DNA of 64,000 nt from Ischnura elegans (taxonomy: Eukaryota; Arthropoda; Insecta; Odonata; Coenagrionidae), in contig NC_060247.1 of assembly GCF_921293095.1 (NCBI RefSeq), positions 111,867,111-111,931,110 of the forward strand, read 5' to 3'. Within the stretch, counting starts at the first letter, position 1. Each line of letters begins with the position of its first letter. Positions 17,148 to 56,196 of the stretch are shown in pieces. A model generated the notes under the pieces. It was not told the DNA's origin, made no database searches, and saw nothing but the letters and a program-made list of their open reading frames with translations. The translations under genes and the position numbers were made by a program.

Positions 17148-18075
17148 ATTGCAAGGGCGATTCAAAGGAAAGGGAGAAACTTTGATTATATTTTCACTAA
17201 TTCAAAAGCTAACTTCACATTCACCTAAGAACTATTGAAACTACACACCAGTCACCACAGTCACAAAGAGCTCGCGAACCAAGCGGTGTTCAGTTCATTT
17301 ATTTTTGAGAGTTGAGTTACAAAATATTTATTCTTAAGAGAGGAAAACTCAGAAACTTTCGAAGCGGGGCAGGCTGCAAGAATTGTTGTTTTCGAAAGAA
17401 ATGCATTCTACTTCGAGCGCAATAAGTTACTATAATAAATGAAAATACTTTTTGGTATTTTCTTATGAATTAATTTTTTTAATCGTGTTTGAAAATCTAG
17501 TAAATTCAGTCAAAAAAAATGTTTATTTCAAATTTAGAGAACTTCCCTCCTTAATATACGGTCTACCATACAAGGGTAATTGTAGTAGAATTAGAAAAGT
17601 TTTTCGTTCCTCTGTTCCTATAACTGAAGAATCGCCTAGTAAACCATTTTTATTTTGTTTTCAATTTTGATTGAGTTTGAATTAAGAGAGACCAGTATTT
17701 TTTCCTCTTTCGATCCCTCGCATCGCTTACTCCTTGAGCTATTCGTGACGGAAAATCGACGGCCCCAACCATTTCGGAGATAAGTTGATGACGTCACTAA
17801 TTCACTCCGATTCCGTCGCCACTCCTCAGTTATTCCTCGGCCTCGCACATTGGCCTAGCCAGGTTTGTAGTCGTTTATCCTGTCGTGCACGATTCCATCC
17901 TTCAGCAAGCGGTTGTCTTTCAACGGGCTAAAGGGCTCGAACTAGTAATGACGTCATCAGCTAGTGAAAAGCAGGAGGCAACTTTCGTGTTTTTTTATTA
18001 AAAAATTATGAGATAATGTCCGGGCGAAAAAGATTTTTTTACGTTGTAACTTGGGGTTCTTTTCTGGTAGTGAAG
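17148..18075. other. Non-coding stretch
   Basis: Nothing supported beyond short open frames on both strands. Confidence 0.5.
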
Positions 18076-18225
18076 CATGCTCGGGTGCTCCATAGGGTAA
18101 TCTCATACATTTCGCGTGATCCACAGGGTAAACTCCGGGATAATAAACCGGGTATTCCTGTGGAGCACCCCAGCGGCCTTCATTACCAGCACACGCCGGG
18201 AAAGCATCAGATCATTTTTTTGGGG
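18076..18225 (-). mobile_element. PLE-like fragment carrying the shared tail
   Basis: The sequence CGCCGGGAAAGCATCAGATCA at about 18197-18217 is almost identical to 51305-51325 and matches, in reverse, the tail motif of the cassettes at 23386 and 28640. Beside it GGTGCTCCATAGG (18082) and CCTGTGGAGCACC (18158) form an imperfect inverted pair. No clear hammerhead core is seen. Confidence 0.45.
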
Positions 18226-21690: not shown

Positions 21691-22780
21691 ATACTTCATA
21701 TTTTTATAGTCAGCCAAGCTGCTAGTCGCTAATGGCAAACGAGATTCGTTCATTAATGGAGATTGGTCTAGCCTGAATCACACGATAATGTTTACCACGT
21801 TTGATTGTACTCGCTTTCTTGTTTGCGCTCCCGGGAAAAATCTTGCAACTCAAATTTCAACCACTTCCTGATTAACCAGGATGACTCAGAACTGGATGAC
21901 AATGCAATTTTCTTGAACTTTTACCACGACTGGAAGTGTACCTCGAGTAATATTCAGAAATAAAAATTAAGTATAGAGTTCTGAAAAAGGCCACTTAAAT
22001 CCAATGGAGGCGCTGCAATCACAGTAATAAAAATTCTGTTTGTAATACGTAAAGTACCAGTATATATTTTTTTCTGTAGTTTATCTTCAACAAAAGCCTG
22101 CGATTTACCATTCCTTATATGACTTCCTCTGAGAATTTTACATTGATACATGGAATTTTCGACTTCGCAAATGACTTCTGCCGTCTCTATGCCACAATCA
22201 ACAATTGAATAAAAAAGTTTGCTACAAAACTATTTCAAATTGAATGAAGAATTAAAAAAATTGAATTTAGAGATGAAAAGATTTTAAAGAACAGAGAAAG
22301 TGATGAACTGCATAATAATATAGTGTATTACGACATCGATGTCAAGAAATTAGACAATGTAGGTTGGCAAGATATTCAATAGTTTAATTAGAATCCATTA
22401 GGAGACTCTTAACGGCTCTTGATGAAACTGTTGCATTAGTTCTTGAGATCTCTTGTCGATTTGAACTAATGAGAATTAAATGAGTCCAGACATAAATAGG
22501 TAAAATAGTTGAAGTGCAAAAAATATAATGAAGTGAAAGAGAGTGAAGAGAAAGTGAGGGACAACATAATAATACGGTGTGTTAAGACACCAGGACAAAG
22601 CAGGTTGGCAAGATGAACAGTTAAATTAAAATATTTCAATCTGATTAGCACGCTGATCAATCTATCTCAATCTCAATCTCAATCTCAGCTATCTCAAGCT
22701 GGTGGTTGTACTTAAAATTTAAATTGATTGCAAAATTCCTCTCTAACAAAACTAAAAAGTCTAAAATAATATTAACGAAT
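21691..22780. other. AT-rich stretch with a microsatellite
   Basis: A (TCTCAA)n run lies at about 22662-22686. No gene is supported. Confidence 0.5.
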
Positions 22781-23290
22781 AAAAATAACTTTTTTTATAA
22801 AAACCACGTTTTTTTAAAAGAAGAAAATAACTGACTACCTACTTAAATTAATGAAAATTTCAATTACGCATGATGAGAAAGTAAAATAAGTTTTAGAAGA
22901 ACATTTCAGACATCAAAAACGAAAAACGTGTTGCGCATGTACGATTTTATTTTCTACCGCTAGGAGACAAATCAATTATTAATTTCATAACCTCACAAGC
23001 GCACCACGTTTTTCGTTTTTGATTTAAAATTTTACCATGACTGGAAGAGTACATGTAAGATTTTATTTGCCACCGCTAGGAGACAAATCTGATATATATT
23101 GACCAGCAATTATTAATTATATATTCTCACAAGTGCACCACGTTTTTCGTTTTTGATATCTGAAATTTTCTTCTAAAACTTATTTTACTTTTACGTCAAA
23201 AATATTTAAAATTTTAATGAATTTAAGGGGCCGTAGTCAGTTATTTTCTTCTTTTTAACAAAACACGGTTTTTATAAAAATGTTATTTTC
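22781..23290. mobile_element. Foldback element 1 (510 bp)
   Basis: Arms of about 150 bases pair: left 22781-22935 and right 23130-23290 share AAAATAAC, ATAAAAACC, AAGAAGAAAATAACTGACTAC, GTAAAATAAGTTTTAGAAG and CATCAAAAACGAAAAACGTG as inverse complements. The middle holds an internal duplication (ACCGCTAGGAGACAAATC at about 22958 and 23071, each followed by a CACCACGTTTTTCG block). It is non-coding and AT-rich, fits a large foldback MITE and has no clear target duplication. Confidence 0.8.
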
Positions 23291-23475
23291 ATACTTAAAT
23301 ATTTTTCTTTCCCTCCCGAGGGACAGCTTGAGCGATCGCTCTAATGATGGCGGGAAAAAGACTTATTTTAACATTTTCCTTGATGAAGAATGATCTTAGG
23401 CTCTCCCGGCGTATATAATTGTGGAAGGTTACACGGGATTTCCACCGGGTCAGGTTCTCCAACTCCATCTCGGCC

Positions 23476-23520
23476 GGCGTTTCGATGGGCGAGTTGTCCA
23501 TCGTCTTCAGGGTATGTCGA
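23476..23520 (-). ncRNA. Hammerhead-like motif, left arm
   Basis: Minus strand: CTGAAGA, one unpaired C, stem GATGG/CCATC, then GAAAC followed by GCC instead of GTC. The changed cleavage-site triplet makes this copy less likely to be active than its partner. Confidence 0.4.
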
Positions 23521-23633
23521 GTCTTGAAAATCGTCCTCCTTATATCTGGATGACGGCGGTATCAACCGGGGCCATCATCCATATATACCGCCGTCATCCA
23601 TATATAAGGAGGACGATTGTCAAGACTCGACAT

Positions 23634-23676
23634 GCCCTGAAGACGATGGACAACTCGCCCATCGAAACGTCGGCCG
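23634..23676 (+). ncRNA. Hammerhead-like motif, right arm
   Basis: GCC (stem I), CTGAAGA, one extra C, stem II GATGG/CCATC with a nine-base loop, GAAAC, GTC, then GGC (stem I). All conserved core blocks are in the right order and stem III is reduced to AC/GT, as in minimal hammerheads of retroelements. The extra C between the core and stem II departs from the textbook fold, so activity is uncertain. Confidence 0.5.
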
Positions 23677-23932
23677 AGATGGAGTTGGAGAACCTGACCT
23701 AGTAATCCTAGTAAAGGAAATCCCGTATAACCTTCCACATTTTCCTTGATGCTCTGGGGATGTGCTTTTCATCCCTTATTTCATCCCTTCGTCTATAACG
23801 TCCCTTTTTCCGTCGCTAAAACCATGGCTGGTACCGTCTTCCAGCCAATCAGAGCGCACGTAAAAGTTACTCGCAATTTTTCAATGGTGAAGAAATATTA
23901 AAGTATTCGCGGAAAATTGCCTGTAAATTTTA

Positions 23933-24618
23933 TTATACCGGGTGTTTACAGATAGATCTCGGGTATTTAACGCATTATAATATTTATTACATTACACTTA
24001 AAGTAATAAATTATATGTAAAATGAAAGAGAGACTCAAACAGTTTTTTTTAGCAACAATGTACATGTGCGTGAAATGTTTCCGCCGCGATCCGCTAGAAA
24101 GCGGTAGTAGCAAAGATGGCGACTAGTGAACAGAAAGTGTTTTGTATTTTACATTTTACAAAGACTGAATCCGTAGTTATCCACTTAAGTAACATTTTAT
24201 AAAAACGTCCCTTAAAACTCTTCCAACTCGAGAGCGTGAAATGTTTCCGCCGCGATGGAGGTGAAGGAAACATTTCACGCACATTTGCATTGTTGCTAAG
24301 AAATAAAACTGTTTGAGTTGCTCTTTAATATGACATATAATTTATAACTATAAGTATAATGTAATAAATACTATAAAGCGTTTTGTATTTTACATTTTAC
24401 AAAGACTGAATCCGTAGTTATCCACTAGTCGCCATCTTTGCTACAACCGCTTTCTAGCGGATCGCGGCGGAAACATTTCACGCACATGTGCATTTTTGCT
24501 AAAGAACAAAACTGTTTGAGTTGCTCTTTGATTTGACATATTATTTATAACTATAAGTATAATGTAATAAATATAATAAAGCATTAAAACCCCGATATTA
24601 ATTTATAAACACCCTATA
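23933..24618. mobile_element. Foldback element 3 (about 685 bp)
   Basis: Ends TATACCGGGTGTTT (23934) and AAACACCCTATA (to 24618) are inverse complements. Arms of roughly 190 bases (23934-24128 and 24423-24618) share CGTGAAATGTTTCCGCCGCG, CTAGAAAGCGG and CAAAGATGGCGACTAGTG in opposite orientation. The core is scrambled: a block of about 48 bases (TTTTGTATTTTACATTTTAC ... GTAGTTATCCACT) is repeated directly at 24141 and 24381, and an extra partial right arm lies at 24266-24377. No coding capacity. Confidence 0.8.
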
Positions 24619-26796: not shown

Positions 26797-27636
26797 TGGC
26801 CTTTTTCTACCGTTCGACGTGTGAACCGGGGAATAGGGTAGTTTCCTTCATCAAAGAAAACGAAAGGCATTGCTTTCGATTCGTTTCCCATCCTTAGTGT
26901 ATTCATAATATAAAAATTATTTGGTTTTAGAAATACCGGTTCAGACGAATGGCAAGGGTCACTTTTATCCTCATTTGAAAAAGGCCAGATTGGTGCCCGT
27001 GCGATGCCACTCCACGTGACGTCACAGGGACCTAGTTTATATACGAGAAGATAGGAGCTATACATCGTCTGAGGTTACCAATGCATGCATGAGGCACAGA
27101 GCTCAGGGAAACATGTCTTAATAATCACCTATAAAAACTGGCTAAGGTCGGAAAGTTTTCTTCGTTTGATAAGGTATTAATAATCCTTATCTAAGCCAAG
27201 CGCTACCAGCTAGCATGGTACTCTGCTACCTGCTAGCAGCCTGAATCGCAGCGGCGCGCCGCGGCGCACATATCCTCCCCCAAGTCATCTCACACGGCGG
27301 CAGAGGGAACCAGAACGACGTCACACGGAGCTTTTCCAGGAATTCATACTAACCCGTCGCGTTTTCGCGCGCTTGAAATTTTTTCACTTTTCATTTAATC
27401 GCGAAAAATAGATATCGTCATTTAAAAATCTAAAAGGGTGAAATACGTACTCCAGGAGTAATAATCTTTCGATTTAGGCAATAAAAAATAATAGGAAACC
27501 ACCCTATTGCAAGAACGCTCGCGAGAATGCATGGATGAAAGATGGAAAAATAGTTAGTTCTTACTTCGCGCAATTGCACGCCATATTGAGAAAGAAATGC
27601 AGTTCCAAGCTACGCTATTACGTGCCCCGTGTAAAA
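26797..27636. mobile_element. TTTTACACGGGG-type MITE, copy B, split by an insertion
   Basis: The left piece (about 26808-26831) has TTCGACGTGTGAA. The right piece (27509-27636) has GCGAGAATGCATGGATG, GCACGCC, ATTGAGAAAGAAATGC and the terminal GCCCCGTGTAAAA. These pieces are collinear with copy A, and the 677-bp element at 26832-27508 sits exactly between them. The extreme left terminus of copy B is missing or merged with the end of copy A. Confidence 0.7.
26832..27508. mobile_element. AATAGGGT-ended non-autonomous transposon, copy 1
   Basis: 677 bases. The ends AATAGGGTAGTTTCC and GGAAACCACCCTATT form an imperfect terminal inverted repeat. Copies are at 39322-39987 and 55526-56196, collinear over their full length. 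Shared landmarks include CATCAAAGAAAACGAAAG, CCAATGCATGCATGAG, CACAGAGCTCAGGGAAACAT and GAAATACGTACTCCAGGAG. Open frames in copy 1 are broken in the others, so it does not encode protein. The superfamily is not clear from the ends. Confidence 0.8.
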
Positions 27637-28631: not shown

Positions 28632-28680
28632 TTTATGATCTTAGGTTTTCCCGGCGTATCAGTTGCAGAAAAGTTATTGA
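28632..28680 (+). mobile_element. PLE-like tail fragment
   Basis: ATGATCTTAGGTTTTCCCGGCGTAT followed by TGCAGAAAAG matches the left tail and arm start of the cassettes at 23386 and 31033. The rest is absent (5' or 3' truncated). Confidence 0.55.
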
Positions 28681-31023: not shown

Positions 31024-31294
31024 GTTATCATGTGATGTAAGATAAAAGATTCTCCCGGCGTATTAAGTGCAGAAAGGTTTCACGGAATTTCCACCAGGTA
31101 ATATTCTCCATGTCTCCCGACGTTTCGGAGAAAGACTTTATCTTCATCCTCAGGGGATTTTCGACAGCCGTCTCTCAAATTTGACTGGTACAAATCGCTT
31201 GAGGATGAAGAGCAAGTCGGTCTTTGAAACTTCGGGAGACATGAAGAAAATTACCTGGTGGTAAGCCCGAGAAATCTTTCTGCAGGTTATCATG
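31024..31294. mobile_element. PLE-like cassette with 9-bp flanking repeat
   Basis: GTTATCATG flanks the insert at 31024-31032 and 31286-31294. The left tail (GATTCTCCCGGCGTAT) is one-sided, and imperfect arms 31068-31160 and 31195-31285 share GAAAGGTTTCACGG/GAAATCTTTCTGC ends and the block CATGTCTCCCGA-GTTTC in inverse order. A hammerhead-like order is present on the minus strand (CTGAGGA 31153-31147, GAAACGTCGGG from 31126) with a 3-4 bp CCC/GGG stem I, and on the plus strand (TTGAGGA 31199, GAAACTTC 31226-31233), which is degenerate. Confidence 0.6.
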
Positions 31295-39310: not shown

Positions 39311-39321
39311 CTCTTCTACTA

Positions 39322-39987
39322 CTAGGGTAGTTTCCTTCATCAAAGAAAACGAAAGACATTGATTGCGATTCGTTACTCACCATTAGTGTATTCACAATAT
39401 AAAAATTATTTGGTTTTAGAAATCTCAGTTTAGACGAATGTTATGGTCGATTTTAACCGCATTTGAAAAAGGCCAGATTGGCGCCCATGCGATTCCACTC
39501 CACATGACCTCACATGGACCTAGATGCTATGCGAGTAGTCAAAAGTTTTACACCCTCTGAGATTACCAATGCATGCATGAGACACAGAGCTCAGGGAAAC
39601 ATCTTTTAATAATTACTTATTAAAATTGCCTATGGTCGGAAAGTTTCCTTCGTTTGATAGGGTATTGATAATCCTTATTTAATCCCAGCGGTACCTGCTA
39701 GCAGGTTACTCTGCCATCTGATAGCAGCCTGCATCGCAGCGGCGCACATATCCTCGCCCCAAGGTCACCTCACACGGCGACAGCTGGAACCAGAATGACG
39801 TCACACGGGCTTTCCCCAGTATTCATAATAAGCCGTCACGTTTTCGTCCGCTTGAAAATTTTCACTTTTCACATAATCGCGAAAAATGGATGTCGTCATT
39901 AAAAAATCTAAAAGCGTGAAATACGTACTCCAGGAGTAATAATCTTTCGATTTAGGCAATAAAACAATAATAGGAAACAACCTATTT
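39322..39987. mobile_element. AATAGGGT-ended non-autonomous transposon, copy 2
   Basis: Collinear with 26832-27508 and 55526-56196 over its whole length. The ends are slightly decayed (CTAGGGTAGTTTCC and GGAAACAACCTATT). Confidence 0.8.
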
Positions 39988-51300: not shown

Positions 51301-51600
51301 CATTCGCCGGGAAAGCATCAAATCATATTTCAGTTGTTGGTATGTTTTGATTTTCAATATCTCTACACCTCATTTTCTGGAGGAAGAGTTCTCGGGTTTC
51401 CAGCGAGGTCCAAGGGTTTTTCTGCACCGATGTTTCGAAGGCTAAGTCTGCCATTGTCTTCAGGTCTTCATTCACCCTGAAGACGATGGCAGACTTAGCC
51501 TTCGAAACATCGGTGCAGAAAAACCCTTGGACCCGGCTGGAAACCCGAGAACTCTTCCTCCAGTCTATTCGCCGGCAAAACCTTAGATCCTTAACTCTCT
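51301..51600. mobile_element. PLE-like palindrome with near-perfect 88-base arms
   Basis: Arms 51375-51464 and 51476-51563 are nearly identical inverse complements around an 11-base loop. Each carries CTGAAGA, about 20 bases, and GAAACATC (minus 51463-51457 and 51436-51429; plus 51477-51483 and 51504-51511). The right side ends in the shared tail read on the minus strand (GATCTAAGGTTTTGCCGGCG). A second copy of the tail, ATTCGCCGGGAAAGCATC, at 51302 belongs to a separate truncated copy. No protein is encoded. Confidence 0.65.
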
Positions 51601-55525: not shown

Positions 55526-56196
55526 CAATAGGGTAGTTTCCTTCATCAAAGAAAACGAAAGGCATTTATTGCGATTCGTTACCCACCATTAGTGTATTCA
55601 TAATATACAAATTATTTGGTTTTAGAAATACCGGTTTAGACGAATGGCTATGGTCCATTTTTATCTTCATTTGAAAAGGGCCAGATTGGCGCCCATGCGA
55701 TGCCACTCCACGTGATGTCACAGGGACCTAGTTTCTATACGAGAGGATAGGAGTTATACATCGTCTGAGGTTACCAATGCATGCATGAGGCGCAGAGCTC
55801 AGGGAAACATGTCTTCATAATCACCTATTAAAACTGGCTAAGGTCGGAAAGTTTTCTTCATTTGATAAGGTATTAATAATCCTTATTTAAGCCAAGCGCT
55901 ACCAGCCAGCAGGGTACTCAGCTACCAGATAGCAGCCTGCGTCGTATCAGCGCTCAACTCGCCTCAAGGTCACCTCACAGGGCGGCAGCGGGAACCAGAA
56001 ATACGCCACACGGAAAGGTTTCCCGGCATTCATACTTACGCGTCGCGTTTTCGCGCGCTTGAAATTTTTCACTTTTCATTTAATCGCGAAAAATAGATAT
56101 CGTCATTAAAAAATCTAAAAGCGTGAAATACGTACTCCAGGAGTAATAATCTTTCGATTTAGGCAATAAAAAAAATAATAGGAAACCACCCTATTG
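55526..56196. mobile_element. AATAGGGT-ended non-autonomous transposon, copy 3 (best ends)
   Basis: 671 bases with ends CAATAGGGTAGTTTCC and GGAAACCACCCTATTG, inverse complements with one mismatch. Collinear with copies 1 and 2. Flanks do not show a clear target duplication. Confidence 0.85.

Follow-up and report, generated by a model that had tools for sequence, protein, structure and literature searches.

What kind of event could leave two inverted copies of the same sequence, each with a hammerhead-like core, between two copies of one short target sequence and with a tail at one end only? This is the question raised by positions 23371-23751 of the 64,000-nucleotide stretch of Ischnura elegans DNA analysed here (the window). 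An initial annotation, made from the sequence alone, had described a complete Penelope-like element (PLE) cassette of terminal repeats, mobilized without a reverse transcriptase (RT) of its own. The PLE origin holds; the cassette does not. We conclude that 23371-23751 is a 5'-truncated, ORF-less PLE insertion of the kind that encodes RT and a GIY-YIG endonuclease, and the PLE reading is well supported. It is an ordinary insertion, and the pattern seen across its family may sharpen the view of how PLEs insert.

Structure of the insertion

The insertion is bounded by an exact 15-bp direct repeat, ACATTTTCCTTGATG, and its left (23371-23385) and right (23737-23751) copies are the target-site duplication that had been annotated. 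The duplication score is 15; when 300 pairs of positions were drawn at random from the window, 299 gave 9 or less and the remaining one 25. Between the two copies lie a tail, two inverted arms and a short junction, and the whole hairpin is 366 bases long. The tail (23386-23420, minus strand, 35 nt) is present at the left end only, just as annotated, and the right arm has none. The left arm (23421-23562) is a truncated pseudo-LTR (pLTR) with its sense direction on the minus strand, and the right arm (23585-23736) is a truncated, tail-less pLTR with its sense direction on the plus strand; both assignments come from the inverted repeats and from alignment to family copies. Sense thus runs outward in both arms. 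The junction is a 22-nt gap between the inverted repeats (23563-23584). The inverted terminal repeats of the initial annotation are evident: the main arms (23448-23562 and 23585-23699) are 97% complementary over 115 nt, and the outer arms (23417-23443 and 23716-23742) are 93% complementary over 27 nt. By eye, a small extra stretch at about 23700-23715 in the right arm interrupts the arm match.

The left arm contains a TATA-like box (recognized by eye), a hammerhead and the start of a PLE ORF. This ORF start, MDNSPIETPAEMELENLTRWKSRVTFHNYIRRESLRSFF, occupies 23386-23501 on the minus strand; it was read from the sequence and has homologues in long family copies. On the minus (sense) strand, the tail codes for the N-terminal segment ...NYIRRESLRSFF, and includes the conserved IRRESLRSF segment, the final residues of the ORF start. 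The motif IRRE[SN][LI][RKQ]S is found again at the tails of other PLE traces, both in the window and in retrieved loci. The end of the tail marks RT start site 1, which corresponds to the start at family positions 1-5 shared by the tailed arms in 24 two-armed copies, and the outer end of the right arm is RT start site 2 (..CCTTCC).

The insert itself lacks RT, as had been annotated, and it also lacks the endonuclease. This copy is inert, a dead insertion. Searches of the phage collection returned 11 records with E values of 0.4 or worse, the plasmid collection gave no match and the PDB nothing relevant. Other foldback repeats lie on both sides of the insert (22765-23306 and 23940-24614), with arms of 74-110 nt that are 78-95% complementary.

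Three further copies built on this plan, and two fragments consisting of a tail only, were recognized by eye elsewhere in the window. The second member (31024-31294, the element itself spanning 31033-31285) has inverted arms and a hammerhead and was recognized by reading the sequence and by its duplication score. Its tail is on the left (31033 to about 31067) and its 9-bp duplication, GTTATCATG, has a score of 9, a value reached by 4 of 300 random pairs. The third member (51377-51590), identified from motif and repeat matches, has inverted arms, a hammerhead core on both strands and a tail on the right (51564-51590, by eye); no duplication was found at its ends. Nor was one found at the ends of the fourth, PLE-like member (about 18062-18221), recognized by sequence matches, which has short inverted arms (by eye) and a tail on the right. 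The tail-only fragments at 28635-28668 (minus strand) and 51302-51330 (plus strand) were each identified by a tail match and the IRRE motif. The window also contains a direct repeat family of three copies (26832-27489, 39321-39967 and 55527-56174) that are 74-92% identical and spaced by about 12.5 and 16.2 kb.

The family and its hammerhead-like core

A first genome search, using a query that included the tail, yielded 1480 candidates, of which 40 loci were scored and all 40 were read; because the query carried the tail, tailed copies are over-favoured in this sample. Two inverted arms are present in 24 loci and one arm in 16. L003 and L005, being duplicates of L002 and L004, are not counted.

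The initial annotation had called for a search for copies joined to an RT with a GIY-YIG domain, and the family contains such links. L009, L016 and L022 run continuously from the tail through the pLTR to a GIY..YVGETGRT endonuclease motif, and L028 begins just inside this motif. Beyond the pLTR, L022 reads ..GIYQIPCTCGLVYVGETGRTVETRLKEH..REAIEIRLNTTINRDTGY..stop. In long copies the pLTR lies between the endonuclease stop and the ORF start, the arrangement of a pseudo-LTR. Pfam gave no match for the family's own endonuclease piece. However, the piece is 40% identical to the endonuclease of L042, which matches PF01541 at 9e-6, and by this comparison it is a GIY-YIG endonuclease. Pfam likewise gave no GIY-YIG match for L045 and did not recognize P0001, P0003 or P0004.

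L045 provides the link to RT. Its single 384-aa frame joins an RT segment (RVT_1 31.2 bits, cut-off 29.6) to the endonuclease (GIYQIPC..YVGETGR), and part of the family's pLTR comes after this frame. At the DNA level, L045 matches the family pLTR and endonuclease from positions 124 to 632 at 92.7%, and the same family therefore has an ORF combining RT and GIY-YIG. L045 is without the N-terminal part of RT and its pLTR match breaks at family position 124, so that there is no complete, intact full-length copy of the family among the copies examined. The best match to a named protein is from Ischnura elegans (96%). Relatives carry RT together with endonuclease. P0034, from Hetaerina, scores 26.0 bits for RVT_1 (under the cut-off of 29.6) and 22.8 for GIY-YIG (cut-off 22.6), and P0039 scores 36.5 for RVT_1. 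The best 120 of 2678 similar proteins include P0128, a PLE-like RT protein filed under Escherichia coli that is probably contamination.

A genome search with the endonuclease gave 15710 first-look candidates, of which 150 matches were scored. Five of the ten endonuclease loci L044-L053 (L045, L046, L049, L051 and L052) break at family positions 124-142. At the break, adjoining the TATA-like box, L046 and L052 carry insertions of 172 bp (1274-1445) and 323 bp (1111-1433); the start of the pLTR is a possible insertion hot spot. L076/L077 is a PLE pair with near-identical arms that lies within the hammerhead region of a different PLE, and its duplication, ATCCCCTGAAGATGA, spans the CTGAAGA core. 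At G000:C11:102452383-102458409, an inverted PLE pair has 844-aa open frames on both sides. Similar pairs were also seen, and the foldback plan thus reaches very long arms. The L079 pair on C1 is in same-strand orientation, with endonucleases at 158995204 and 158997760. By eye, its sequence continues beyond the tail into an apparent further ORF, in which case the end of the tail would fall inside the RNA.

The hammerhead-like core was annotated on both strands, and both cores are indeed there: CTGAAGA..GAAACGTC at 23637-23671 on plus, identified by motif match, its stems I and II supported by covariation among families, and CTGAAGA..GAAACGCC at 23476-23510 on minus, identified by motif match. 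The annotated GUC cleavage triplet is not on both. Read from 23510 down to 23476, the minus core has GCC, having lost the U before the cleavage site. The start codon (ATG) of the PLE ORF lies inside stem II, and the distance from this codon to the predicted cleavage after GUC is 26 nt in the plus copy (counted by hand).

A gap-free alignment of seven PLE families, all from the Ischnura elegans genome (L009, L056, L060, L076, the L077 flank and two window copies), gives the pattern C/U-UGANGA, 20 nt, GAAAC(G/A)UC. The core of B_L056 starts UUGA, and the L042 stretch, when searched, did not contain the motif. In all seven families a single additional pyrimidine follows GA, ahead of stem II; the textbook hammerhead core does not have it. 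Stems I and II covary across the seven families. Positions pair in 87% of cells; double changes occur in 6 of 9 pairs (equalled by 28 of 500 shuffles), with 11 further pair types (equalled by 27 of 500) and 15 cells changed on both sides, compared with 4.6 after shuffling (0 of 500). Slid versions of the stems gave 4 at most, a comparison that favours the unslid version because the stems were picked by eye from these same sequences. The initial annotation had made its reading depend on compensatory changes preserving stem II, and across families they do. Covariation is observed although Rfam found no hammerhead where searched, either in the whole window at gathering level or up to E 10 in 22800-24300, L056, L060, L076 and L009. 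The Rfam matches to MIR918 and MIR6136, below gathering, reflect the hairpin. Judged from its sequence, a CUGANGA and GAAA core with stems I and II is consistent with the minimal type I hammerhead of PLEs.

Would such a core act in transcripts of this copy? The initial annotation supposed a ribozyme-like transcript in either direction. Activity is unlikely, given that the minus core is without its U and that RNA from both strands is predicted to form a near-perfect hairpin. The predicted fold is arm-to-arm on either strand (-277.9 and -270.1 kcal/mol, z -33 and -26), which would hide the ribozyme, and transcripts of the insertion would be as likely to serve as a source of dsRNA as to cleave themselves.

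Outer and inner ends of the inverted copies

The outer ends of the family copies cluster at two sites. In the 40-locus set, all 24 two-armed copies have a tailed arm beginning at family position 1-5, and in 20 of them the non-tailed arm starts at 31-36. In 20 of the 24, the offset between the two ends is about 31-35 nt, in line with a tail of 30-40 nt at one end. The other arm of L004 starts at 24, which is the same place, its alignment slipping into its duplication. The deviating second-arm starts are at 50 in L033 and 109 in L030, both with shorter tail-less arms, and at 233 in L015. Weak minus matches 4-5 kb off in L019 and L020 were taken as other PLE copies. A duplication score of at least 9 was obtained for 20 of the 24 two-armed copies, compared with 3 of 200 random controls, and for 6 of the 15 one-armed copies tested. 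Target-site duplications are variable in length, 15 bp at 23371-23751 and 9-19 bp across copies.

The one-tailed pattern is also present in samples blind to the tail. By eye, the 150 scored endonuclease matches include at least 12 inverted pairs no more than 6 kb apart. All 12 are divergent (minus then plus) and none convergent; there is one same-strand pair besides. Their arms are 99.6-100% identical over the 230-298 nt compared. Each of the 12 has exactly one tail (8 left, 4 right), all read by eye; a scripted tail motif recognized just 3. These pairs belong to other families, and 11 of 12 have perfect duplications of 11-15 bp, a count made without a random control. In the L054/L055 pair, one side ends early and there is only a doubtful 8-bp repeat. 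A further 20 endonuclease-bearing ends, unpaired and picked blind to the tail, possibly include some with short second arms. All 20 fall into two groups, 7 reaching past the tail (family positions 295-314) and 13 tail-less (259-277, a spread that includes chance matches).

A search with the pLTR only gave 1206 candidates, of which 40 were scored, representing 39 places: 21 from the 40-locus set, 16 newly retrieved, and L047 and L048. Both ends are seen in 22 two-armed copies. One, L100, is without a tail and 21 are one-tailed, 13 of these from the 40-locus set and 8 new (L101 and L104 having a partial tail only). L111, with one end beyond the stretch, is in no end count. The 16 one-armed places, some of them short stretches in which a second arm may lie outside the view, divide into 8 with a tail (L009, L011, L013, L016-L019 and L022) and 8 without (L047, L048, L102, L105, L106, L108, L110 and L113).

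When the tail-blind inverted copies are pooled, 33 of 34 are one-tailed, one (L100) has no tail and none has two. Outside the 40-locus set, 20 of 21 are one-tailed; for independent ends and a tail frequency of 0.35-0.5, the probability of at least 20 is 2e-6 to 1e-5, a guide rather than an exact test because the copies are related and the counts are not independent events. Single ends take either start site about equally; inverted copies nearly always have one of each.

The inner ends of paired arms are uncorrelated (Spearman -0.20, p 0.37, n 23; for a subset of 12, 0.10, p 0.75; arm lengths entered by hand, L015 left out and a 29-nt extra piece in L039 ignored). At the inner join, the arms overlap by 1-7 nt in 7 of 24 copies, as microhomology would leave, and in 17 of 24 there are 2-55 nt that belong to neither arm. 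It is here that the 'complete cassette' gives way: inner ends vary widely among copies, pointing to extreme 5' truncation rather than a defined mobile unit. The two arms of one element nevertheless share variants. Within-element divergence is 0.050, compared with a mean of 0.070 for permuted partners (0 of 2000), which implies one common source or later gene conversion. L027 is a possible exception.

Models of insertion and known systems

We propose the following route to these structures. The element's endonuclease would cut both strands, about 15 bp apart, and each free 3' end would prime reverse transcription of element RNA within the ORF start. One cDNA would begin at the distal site, giving the arm with the tail; the other would begin at the proximal site, about 32-35 nt upstream, giving the tail-less arm. 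Both would stop early, inside the pLTR. Joining of the inner cDNA ends and fill-in of the staggered cut would then leave the 15-bp duplication. We infer the order of events and the roles of the enzymes; that 23371-23751 consists of two target-primed cDNAs, one per strand, from two RNA start sites, truncated and joined, we hold with high confidence.

Four other explanations were weighed. The first is self-priming: a single antisense transcript would fold back and serve as its own primer, and the hairpin made in this way would be inserted, a route put forward for the Penelope elements of Adineta. Inverted pLTRs that meet head to head at palindromic junctions are a frequent arrangement, and the authors of PMC3846280 prefer this explanation; variants common to both arms of one element would also fit. 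However, self-priming predicts matching inner ends, and these are uncorrelated (614 and 181 in L027, for example). It also predicts no fixed tail-less outer end, whereas tail-less ends cluster at one site. We regard it as improbable here, and the outer and inner end patterns suggest that two target-primed cDNAs are the better fit.

Twin priming of the LINE type is less probable again. One RNA would be used, with the second cDNA primed internally, and the arms would be non-overlapping pieces of that RNA. L015 has this form, with inverted segments covering 1-235 and 233-569 and a duplication of 11 bp, and ordinary twin priming may occur alongside. In the other 23 two-armed copies of the 40-locus set, however, the stretches of RNA represented in the two arms overlap, which requires two passes over the template.

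Could the insertion be a unit with its own life cycle, a retrozyme-like or terminal-repeat-only non-autonomous cassette of about 350 bp mobilized in trans? Similar foldbacks of 340-387 bp exist (L002, L004, L006, L007 and L008), but they were selected by their likeness to the query. Arm lengths are very variable, and in other PLE families the arms reach long ORFs. The animal non-LTR retrozymes, as described in PMC7229834, are likewise short and non-coding, with a type I hammerhead and, when present, target duplications. They differ in being tandem repeats with canonical hammerheads, whereas 23371-23751 is an inverted pair with a minimal hammerhead of the PLE type; a tandem array of the retrozyme kind, with monomers of about 300 bp, was looked for at this place in the window and none was found. 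Moreover, the RNA is predicted to be a closed hairpin. A cassette is not needed to explain 23371-23751, and we think it most unlikely.

Finally, a DNA-transposon foldback or MITE with terminal inverted repeats would explain inverted arms and a duplication, but it is scarcely credible given that the duplication length differs among copies, that one end exceeds the other by about 32-35 nt, and that the arms represent the coding start of a PLE ORF, with copies extending into RT and endonuclease coding sequence.

Two target-primed cDNAs, then, are the reading we carry into the comparison with PLEs studied elsewhere. In Pen2a_Av, a Penelope of Adineta vaga, PMC3846280 describes an inverted pLTR added to the element, a 9-bp duplication and an optional 31-bp tail on one of its inverted pLTRs; a one-sided tail is therefore already published. 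One difference lies in the proposed mechanism. The authors of that study attribute the inversion to self-priming on an antisense template, whereas the end patterns in the damselfly favour two target-primed cDNAs. Our literature search, whose scope mostly left out subscription titles, found no account of inverted pLTRs arising through two-site priming on both strands.

PAc, a Poseidon PLE of Anolis carolinensis (PMC11167929), is close to the damselfly families in several respects. It has a hammerhead at the ORF start, with the start codon at stem II, a tail delimited on either side by an internal RT start site and an ORF with RT and GIY-YIG. In vitro, the Anolis protein cuts and extends both strands, and RT begins at these two sites, which are adjacent (PMC11167929). 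The PAc start sites were assayed in vitro, whereas the pattern in the damselfly families is read from genomic insertions. The choice of start site did not appear to differ between strands in vitro (PMC11167929), whereas inverted copies in the damselfly almost always have one of each. Because no difference between strands was seen in vitro, some additional coupling step would be required to produce the one-tailed pattern. PLE integration might be a coupled, two-sided reaction in which an RNP copies its RNA once from each strand of a staggered cut and is obliged to combine a distal start on one with a proximal start on the other, unlike LINE TPRT; we see the case for and against this as evenly balanced. 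If it is true, the coupled reaction makes both the inverted pLTRs and the one-sided tail, and these old oddities of PLEs become readouts of one mechanism. The Ischnura elegans genome, with its many PLE copies, is a natural experiment on the insertion of a poorly understood class of eukaryotic retrotransposons. The pattern of one tail in 33 of 34 inverted copies links genomic structure with the RT start sites defined in vitro in Anolis, and opens the question of how inverted pLTRs arise to direct testing.
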